DNA of 55,219 nt from a virus: positions 1-55,219 of IMG/VR virus record IMGVR_UViG_3300027607_000117. One strand, 5' to 3'. Shown here in pieces: positions 9,446 through 11,512 of this stretch (positions within the stretch are counted from its first letter, which is position 1; every line of letters begins with the position of its first letter). The notes below the pieces were generated by a model. That model was not told the DNA's origin and did no database searches. It saw only the letters and a program-made list of their open reading frames with translations. Position numbers and translations under genes: made by a program.

Positions 9446-10108
9446 CTGCTGAAGCATTTCCTCCTGCGAAATATAGGTGAGCCAGAGTTTGCCCTCTTGC
9501 TGCATATGCGGGAGATATCCGTCGATTAGCGGTACGCAATGCGGATAGCCATACTTGCGAGTTGGAACGCCGCGCGCGACAAGATGATCCAACACCGATC
9601 CGCAATGCCAATCGACGGCCCACTGACGGATCGACAGCGCGCGGCAGATCCGCGGCAGGAAGACCGACAGGCCGTTGCGGCGAAACTCCGGCTCGATCCA
9701 AAGCCCGCCGTGATGCCCAATCATCCCGGAGAGTAGCGGCAGAGACGGCGCAATCAGCCGCACCGCCTCCCGCTTGAATTCGAAATCCTTGTCGGACCAT
9801 AAGCGTTGCGATCTGACGAGCTGCAGGTAATCATCGGTGCTGAACATCCTGCAGGCGATGCAGCCAACTCGCTGCAGCGCCGTATCCTCGACTTCAATCC
9901 AGTAGCAGTGTGCCTTTGTGAATGTGGAATGGTCCGGGTCGAAGGTGGTTGAGGCAATCATGGCGGTCTTTGGGTGGTCTCGCATGACTTCGCGGACATA
10001 GTGCCTCCAGCTATAGAGATTGTGGTCCAGACGCAGCGAGAATCCATTTCTGGCCAACGCATCGACCGCACGATCAAGGAACGCCTGCGCTAAAGCAGCG
10101 TGGTTCAT
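9314..10108 (-). CDS. Hypothetical protein, 264 aa, possible GNAT-like fold
   Basis: Not recognised with certainty. The segment GGLWIEPEFRRNGLSVFLPR (about residues 140-160) resembles the acetyl-CoA-binding strand-loop-helix of GNAT acyltransferases, followed by a GVPTRKYGYPHC strand that could be the late GNAT region. Transcribed leftward from the region holding operators O3 and O4. The C-terminal tail (after about residue 220) is where it overlaps the convergent gene and may not be conserved. Start chosen at MNHAALAQ; four extra upstream codons are possible. Confidence 0.6.
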   Translation of the reverse strand: MNHAALAQAFLDRAVDALARNGFSLRLDHNLYSWRHYVREVMRDHPKTAMIASTTFDPDHSTFTKAHCYWIEVEDTALQRVGCIACRMFSTDDYLQLVRSQRLWSDKDFEFKREAVRLIAPSLPLLSGMIGHHGGLWIEPEFRRNGLSVFLPRICRALSIRQWAVDWHCGSVLDHLVARGVPTRKYGYPHCVPLIDGYLPHMQQEGKLWLTYISQEEMLQQLSEETEILDAHGNKNLVDLAKLFAERQGQAGVTSPSPITSTPD

Positions 10109-10447: not shown

Positions 10448-11200
10448 ATGGGTAACAAGCTTCACGAACTGCTCGCCGTCGAAGGCGATCTGGAAGGCAA
10501 GGCGAAACTCGTCCTGGACGAGGCGGCCAACACCTTCAGCAAAAAGCCCGAGCACTTCATCGAACAAGTCCGCGATCTGATCATGTTCGACGAAGCGCGG
10601 CAGAACGAGAACACGCACGAAAGCTCGGCGATGGTCACGACCGTCGGCCAGAAGCTCTCGTACATCCGCCGCCCGGTCGTCCGTTACTACGATGCTTTGG
10701 CGTCGAAGGATGCGACCAACCAACAGGCCAAGGCCGACCTGGTCGTGGAAGACGTCACGTTGCTGTCCGATGTCGCGGCCACGACGCTTCTGGCCCTGGA
10801 AAGCAAGCTGAAGCACCTGCGCGGCGTCTTCGAGGCGATCCCGACGCTGCAGCCCGGCATGAAGTGGGAGCCGGACGCGGCTTTTGGCGACGGCGTTTAT
10901 CGCGCGGCCGAGGACATCAAGCGCAACCGCACGGAAAAGGTGATCCAGCACAAGGTGCTCTATGAAGCGACCAAGGAGCACCCGGCGCAGATCGAGAAGT
11001 GGACGCAAGACACGCCGGTCGGCGACATCATCACTAAGTCCTGGTCGGGCATGTGGACGCCCGCGCAGAAGGCCGAAGCTATCGGCCGTATCGACCAGCT
11101 CATTCAGGGCGCGAAGAAAGCGCGTCAGCGCGCCAACAGACAAGATGTGGTCGAGACGAAGGTCGGCGACATCCTCTTCGACTTCATCATGAGTTCCTAA
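10448..11200 (+). CDS. Conserved phage early protein, 250 aa (DUF7873-like), unknown function
   Basis: The layout (MGNKLHELLAVEGDLEGKAK start; FDEARQNENTHE; an internal REDIKRNRTEKV-like basic region; KEHPAQIEKWTQDTPVGDII; C-terminal helix IDQLIQGAKKARQRANRQDV) matches what I recall of a widespread phage and bacterial family of unknown role, DUF7873. It is the first gene of the rightward early transcript and has a strong GGAGGA ribosome site. An upstream frame from 10100 runs through operators and hairpins and is not coding. Function not known. Confidence 0.75.
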   Translation: MGNKLHELLAVEGDLEGKAKLVLDEAANTFSKKPEHFIEQVRDLIMFDEARQNENTHESSAMVTTVGQKLSYIRRPVVRYYDALASKDATNQQAKADLVVEDVTLLSDVAATTLLALESKLKHLRGVFEAIPTLQPGMKWEPDAAFGDGVYRAAEDIKRNRTEKVIQHKVLYEATKEHPAQIEKWTQDTPVGDIITKSWSGMWTPAQKAEAIGRIDQLIQGAKKARQRANRQDVVETKVGDILFDFIMSS

Positions 11201-11305
11201 GGACCAAGCTTATCGTGGTCCTCAACCTCAGGCGGGTCTGAGAAGCCCGCGTCAGCCTCAAAATGATGCCCTTAATTTCAGAGATACGAATGATGCCAGT
11301 AAGAG
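11201..11305 (+). ncRNA. Structured leader upstream of the permuted tRNA
   Basis: No gene fits. Visible structure: hairpin GGACCA...TGGTCC (11201-11221) right after the stop codon, hairpin GCGGG/CCCGC (11232-11250), and a 9-base direct repeat AATGATGCC at 11262-11270 and 11289-11297. The region may be only 3' untranslated RNA, or part of the precursor that helps process the permuted tRNA. Confidence 0.35.
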
Positions 11306-11415
11306 CCGCAATTAATATCGGACAGTGGGGGTTCGATTCCCCTCCGCCCAGCCAATCCTCTGATGGGCGGTTGCATAATGGCAGTGCGGTCCGACTTGAT
11401 CTTGATCCCTTGCGG
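11306..11415 (+). tRNA. Candidate circularly permuted tRNA-Gln (3' half before 5' half)
   Basis: The 3' half comes first: CGGAC (11319-11323), AGT, T arm GGGGG-TTCGATT-CCCCT, acceptor strand CCGCCCA, G73, CCA (to 11354). A nine-base spacer follows, then the 5' half: acceptor TGGGCGG (11364-11370), TT, D arm GCAT-AATGGCA-GTGC, G, and GTCCG (11389-11393). The acceptor halves pair over 7 bp, the anticodon-stem halves over 5-6 bp. Flanking GAG-CCGCAA (11303-11311) pairs with TTGCGG-U-CUC (11410-11419). U1:A72, G2:C71, G3:C70 and G73 are glutamine identity elements, and the loop bases ACTTGAT would give UUG, though with C33 instead of U33. The 3-base variable loop is short. How the halves would be joined is unknown. 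Confidence 0.7.
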
Positions 11416-11439
11416 TCTCCGAAAGCGGGTTTCGTCTCA

Positions 11440-11512
11440 TCGCATGTAGCTCAGCGGGTAGAGCTCGCGACTTGTAATCGCGTATGCGCCGGTTCGAGTC
11501 CGGTCATGCAAA
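11440..11512 (+). tRNA. tRNA-Thr(UGU)
   Basis: Normal cloverleaf: acceptor TCGCATG/CATGCAA, TA, D arm GCTC-AGCGGGTA-GAGC, anticodon arm CGCGA-CTTGTAA-TCGCG with anticodon TGT, variable loop TATGC, T arm GCCGG-TTCGAGT-CCGGT, A73. There is one C2:A71 mismatch in the acceptor stem and CCA is not encoded. It begins 24 bases after the permuted tRNA's closing helix and is probably on the same transcript. Confidence 0.9.

Follow-up and report, generated by a model that had tools for sequence, protein, structure and literature searches.

At this locus, a gene for a DUF7873 protein is followed, on the same strand, by a tRNA-like RNA whose two halves stand in reverse order, and then by an ordinary tRNA gene. 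The window, that is, the whole stretch of DNA analysed (a virus record of 55,219 bases), also carries a phage integrase. The DUF7873 gene (PF25283, Pfam E=4e-70) lies at 10448..11200 (+) and encodes 250 amino acids from the ATG at 10448, on which the starts of 67 aligned homologues agree; the GTG at 10100, where the mechanically called reading frame begins, is probably too far upstream. The permuted element lies in the interval between the gene end at 11200 and an ordinary tRNA-Thr(UGU), found by ARAGORN and the Rfam tRNA model at 11440..11512 (+), directly 3' of the permuted RNA. An ordinary tRNA often stands at the equivalent place in relatives, and the layout of the window recurs at loci L156-L158 and L160-L162.

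The tRNA-like part spans 11319-11393 on the plus strand, the 3' half with its CCA preceding the matching 5' half. It begins with the 3' strand of an anticodon-like stem, CGGAC (11319..11323), followed by a T arm, GGGGG-TTCGATT-CCCCT (11327..11343), and by the acceptor 3' strand CCGCCCA (11344-11350) with a discriminator G (11351) and CCA (11352-11354). A 9-nt linker, ATCCTCTGA (11355..11363), leads from the CCA to the acceptor 5' strand TGGGCGG (11364..11370), which is followed by a D arm, GCAT-AATGGCA-GTGC (11373..11387), and by the 5' strand of the anticodon-like stem, GTCCG (11389..11393). The variable loop has 3 nt. Both halves are enclosed by an outer helix, P2, in which GAGCCGCAA (11303..11311, +) pairs with TTGCGGTCTC (11410..11419, +). 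On the 3' side, the internal loop between the inner stem and P2 is ACTTGATCTTGATCCC (11394..11409, +), which represents a doubled YUNA motif and holds no conserved anticodon. Immediately beyond P2 lies a CGAAAG element, CAACGAAAGA (11420..11427, +), that is also present in flanks of phage relatives and is aligned by the family model described below. Upstream, a 5' flank at 11220..11285 (+) contains further YUNA motifs, some of them in 6-nt-spaced doublets (CCTCAACCTCAGG, CCCTTAATTTCAGAG).

A segment check found the stems, arms, CCA and both P2 strands at the positions given above, and every coordinate of the sequence-only reading of this DNA holds; the permuted order that it described is genuine by this check, by a permuted-tRNA scan and by a family covariance model. 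The strict scan of the window returned the 11319-11393 element as its single match, and this included both strands of the anticodon-like stem; neither ARAGORN nor the Rfam tRNA model reported the permuted element in the window. Folding of the single sequence gives -43.7 kcal/mol (z -1.73), with 12 of 200 shuffles equally good. This is weak support, and it is the comparative evidence that is decisive.

The family covariance model, built from 29 viral members with the window left out, matches the window RNA over its full length at 11298..11428 (+) with 63.8 bits (E=5.4e-16); the runner-up among other sites of the window scores 16.7 bits. Compensatory changes occur at 15 of the 16 pairs of the model, in the acceptor, T and D stems, including all 7 acceptor pairs. 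The pairing of the acceptor and anticodon-like stems across the two halves, first read from one sequence, is upheld. On average, 6.98 of the 7 acceptor positions pair, whereas mismatched partners give 3.93, and 53 different acceptor strands are found among 65 phage RNAs. The flanking helix, likewise proposed from the window alone together with an internal loop of about 7 by 16 bases, turns out to be a conserved architecture: in 64 phage RNAs, P2 scores on average 15.4 with its true partner and 8.9 with permuted partners (z=12.8). Its distance from the stem is mostly 3-10 nt for the 5' strand and 11-15 nt for the 3' strand. The P2 helix of the window scores within the top 2.1% of mismatched partners. 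Thus, the window RNA combines a family model match and a P2 helix with a DUF7873 gene directly upstream on the same strand.

The two ends of the acceptor stem also carry conserved signals. CCA is encoded in 59 of 64 phage members, compared with 84 of 116 ordinary tRNAs in the same loci, and the leader of phage members has U at -3 in 51 of 63 and a purine at -2 in 61 of 63; the last bases of the window linker fit this U(-3) R(-2) pattern. Host-type members are mostly without CCA, and their acceptors are closed by loops of 6-8 nt. Outside the tRNA-like body, the YUNA motif recurs throughout the flanks of the whole family and is strongly periodic, with 238 pairs at 6-nt spacing observed in 146 family 5' flanks and 30 expected (z=35).

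Searches for DUF7873 homologues yielded 86 phage records, 4 records of plasmids or chromids, and at least 244 bacterial and at least 346 viral contigs; among the Streptomyces species sampled, half (41 of 81) have one. With the upstream reading frame left untrimmed as the query, viral_contigs gave no protein match, and it was by trimming the query to the DUF7873 domain and searching other collections that these hundreds of homologues were recovered. The protein is modelled by AlphaFold with a mean pLDDT of 95, and a comparison of the predicted fold with PDB and BFVD gave no significant match and none that points to RNA binding. No recurring neighbour gene was seen at the sampled host and MAG loci of DUF7873.

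The permuted tRNA-like RNA does recur beside the gene. Of the 167 DUF7873 loci that had enough sequence (from phages, Streptomyces, Actinomadura, Planctomycetes and others), 148 have one on the same strand in the 700 nt that follow the gene, some of these loci being near-identical and their counts therefore not all independent; the background in the rest of the same loci is 0.0047 per 700 nt. This excess far exceeds anything that near-duplicate loci could produce. Two permuted RNAs are present at 29 of the 167 loci, and one or two follow the gene at each INPHARED or plasmid locus examined that has a clear homologue (L156-L167). The covariance model later recovered further RNAs at loci where the scanner had been negative. 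No permuted RNA was seen at L168, a distant Prevotella Lak homologue of DUF7873, and neither permuted RNA nor tRNA was found in terminase relatives. The linkage also appears from the opposite direction: when IMG/VR was searched with a tRNA pattern, blind to the gene, DUF7873 turned up in two of the records, L050 and L077, and the RNA adjoins the gene in both, the homologue in L050 lying directly upstream of its own permuted RNA. Another search pattern, an acceptor pair around CCA, was dropped since its matches were chance sequences only.

Comparison across loci, then, shows that the fold is real and conserved, that P2 belongs to it and that gene and RNA are linked, and on these grounds we regard the locus as a conserved RNA-protein pair and not as a one-off broken or spliced tRNA gene. 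Most likely, with a probability that we put at about 0.65, a permuted non-coding RNA that mimics tRNA and the DUF7873 protein encoded upstream of it form a conserved two-part module that acts as a ribonucleoprotein.

The sequence-only reading had instead taken the element for a tRNA-Gln gene whose loop is cut and ligated. For such a true permuted tRNA gene, the acceptor would be trimmed by RNase P and 3' enzymes, and the anticodon-side ends would be cut and ligated, by RtcB or another ligase and perhaps with the aid of DUF7873, into a working tRNA. The 3' half with CCA does precede the 5' half, with full cloverleaf stems, and the encoded CCA, the U(-3)R(-2) leader and, in the window, elements that would fit GlnRS (TTG, U1-A72, G73) all speak for this idea. 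As in the permuted tRNA genes of algae and archaea, a linker with leader and CCA lies between the facing acceptor ends, and the outer ends form a helix. However, a working tRNA made by joining the two anticodon-side ends would be expected to have kept U33 and an anticodon, and neither is kept. Position 33 of the joined window RNA would be C, and U is found there in 25 of 65 phage and 25 of 88 host-type members, not far above the U content of the flanks (0.28 and 0.22, respectively). The would-be anticodon loop bases, ACTTGATCTTGATC, are a doublet of the 6-nt-spaced YUNA motif, hence part of the repeated flank motif. Across the family, every kind of 1:72 pair and discriminator is present, and even among close species of Streptomyces an acceptor of the type G1-C72/U73 gives way to U1-A72/G73, with the inner stem nearly constant through the switch (CGTCG paired with CGACG or CGGCG). 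In short, the family has no conserved anticodon, and acceptor identity drifts freely. This lack of a conserved anticodon or tRNA identity, and the link to DUF7873, set the family apart from the algal and archaeal genes, and the host-type acceptors closed by short loops, mostly without CCA, fit a tRNA gene poorly. We know of no bacterial or phage enzyme that splices a permuted tRNA precursor. The tRNA-Gln reading thus finds no support, and a working tRNA seems to us quite unlikely. The fallback offered with it, two decayed tandem tRNA copies, could draw on the adjoining ordinary tRNA gene; it is already refuted by the comparative data, namely the compensatory changes at nearly every model pair and the conservation with one gene across phyla, and we give it virtually no credence. 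A two-piece RNA of the tmRNA kind, which would mature to a CCA end, be aminoacylated, bind EF-Tu and act on the ribosome with DUF7873 as a helper, comes nearer, although we still think it improbable. Like the two-piece tmRNAs of alphaproteobacteria and cyanobacteria, the window RNA would have its CCA end and 5' end made inside the precursor and carries an acceptor domain on a long stem; order and CCA agree, and there are weak Rfam matches to cyano_tmRNA and tmRNA_permuted. Yet the family has a standard D arm, different flanks and neither a conserved 3:70 pair (such as the alanine G3-U70 rule) nor a conserved discriminator; ARAGORN found no tmRNA in the window, no tag reading frame has been identified so far, and host members mostly lack the CCA. 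Finally, the RNA could be a 3' structure of the DUF7873 mRNA that acts in cis on stability, processing or autoregulation and has no role in trans. Its constant position directly 3' of the gene, on the same strand, would agree with this, but it would not account for the retention of tRNA features (T loop, D loop, CCA and leader) or for the tandem RNAs at 29 loci, and we hold such a role to be very unlikely. A permuted group I intron was also considered; the flanks looked too short for one, and the Rfam models, the set compared here, detected no ribozyme or intron relative in them.

The nearest known relatives in design are the bacterial Y RNAs. Bacterial Y RNA is a tRNA mimic that can be superposed on tRNA once the order of the parts is circularly permuted (PMC11472068), and in Deinococcus a Y RNA tethers Rsr/Ro60 to PNPase (PMC7790460). 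The window RNA shares with YrlA (RF02553) a permuted tRNA-like head of T arm, acceptor and D arm, carried on a terminal stem that both ends of the RNA form and that contains an internal loop. YrlA also lies beside the gene of its protein partner, as the window family lies beside that of DUF7873, its proposed partner, and both occur in phages. To our knowledge, bacterial permuted tRNA mimics have so far been known only through Y RNA and Ro60. The window RNA could in principle be a Y RNA proper of the YrlA type, whose Ro60/Rsr partner comes from the host or from outside the record. Under permissive settings, the Rfam YrlA model does align to the window element over its full length (23.7 bits, E=0.008), and Ro60-linked permuted RNAs occur in other virus records. 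This score is far under the gathering threshold of 69, which none of 18 DUF7873 loci reached, although as a membership test the threshold is not sharp, for Ro60-linked phage RNAs miss it too. The window has no TROVE/Ro60 match, neither to PF05731 nor to a profile made from phage Ro60 candidates, and TROVE is absent from 27 of 30 virus records with DUF7873. The tRNA-pattern search of IMG/VR returned many permuted tRNA-like structures, with a TROVE/Ro60 match in 8 of 21 such records (6 of them above the cut-off of the family), which is what one would expect of Y RNAs, and in none of the 21 do TROVE and DUF7873 occur together. The families differ further in that phage members of ours encode CCA and have long linkers, carry 6-nt-spaced YUNA repeats in their flanks and often come as two RNAs in succession, and in that their neighbour gene is DUF7873 whereas that of YrlA is TROVE/Ro60. 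We therefore doubt strongly that this is a Y RNA proper; rather, the window RNA resembles one in the way it would work, as a permuted tRNA mimic with its own protein in place of Ro60. Mimics of this type need no ligation, and on our reading the window RNA would require no joining either.

How might a module of mimic RNA and DUF7873 operate? In the RNA body, the T arm, acceptor stem and D arm are closed by the anticodon-like stem, which continues through the asymmetric internal loop into P2. DUF7873 would bind the flanks and might multimerise on the YUNA repeats spaced 6 nt apart, although these repeats could partly pair with each other rather than bind protein. Enzymes that bind the elbow and acceptor stem of tRNAs may be recruited by the tRNA-like head, in analogy to the tethering of a partner to Ro60 by a Y RNA. 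In phage members, the enrichment of CCA over ordinary tRNAs and the conserved leader suggest that the acceptor end is cleaved: the CCA end would be opened by RNase P together with 3' processing, leaving a two-piece RNA held together by the inner stem and P2, with no need to join the anticodon ends. In host-type members, mostly without CCA and with short loops, maturation may differ, and the two groups may therefore serve different uses. The frequent CCA points to a genuine maturation of the end, for which a pure mimic would have no need, and to this extent it counts against our preferred reading. More tentatively, it is conceivable, if rather less than an even bet, that DUF7873 and its RNA represent a new class of ribonucleoprotein unrelated to Ro60 and Y RNA. 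Here, a protein of new fold, multimerised on the 6-nt repeats, would present a tRNA body that RNase P has opened into a two-piece, CCA-ended and possibly charged RNA, and this RNA would act on the translation or tRNA-processing machinery of both phage-infected and uninfected cells.

No Rfam family covers the window RNA or the sampled DUF7873 loci at threshold. Our literature search, whose scope stopped short of most subscription journals and bioRxiv, found nothing on DUF7873 and, for permuted tRNAs and tRNA mimics, known cases only, with nothing in phages that explains the window RNA. The family would thus be a second and larger set of permuted tRNA mimics, with a different protein, in hundreds of phages and in half of the sampled Streptomyces species. 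DUF7873, an uncharacterised protein family, gains a candidate RNA partner to test, and the question why a tRNA-shaped RNA that conserves no anticodon is kept by phages and hosts becomes directly testable, in laboratory systems that are not pathogenic.

Several further permuted RNAs came to light during the searches. Those in records with TROVE lie at L079:3949 and 1247, L134:2785(-), L046:2193 and 1428, L031:11358(-) and L089:5473(-); several of them share a 5' motif, CGAATG...GGACTACATC, and a 3' CTTGTCG, and Rfam YrlA reports none of them at threshold. Between the tRNA-Pro and tRNA-Val of a 177 kb virus contig lies a permuted tRNA-like RNA (L026:8842-8920), and this record has neither TROVE nor DUF7873. 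On L169, DUF7873 and its RNA sit on a contig binned as Lokiarchaeota, which is possibly a virus contig or misbinned. A 15 kb contig, again without DUF7873 or TROVE, carries three consecutive permuted RNAs (L110:469, 668 and 1064) that score 35-65 bits with the family model. Finally, actinobacterial loci, among them L183, L185, L196, L227 and L235, have two permuted RNAs after DUF7873, which differ in type, stand in a fixed order and are separated by the conserved segment AGATTCTCGCTCCAG.
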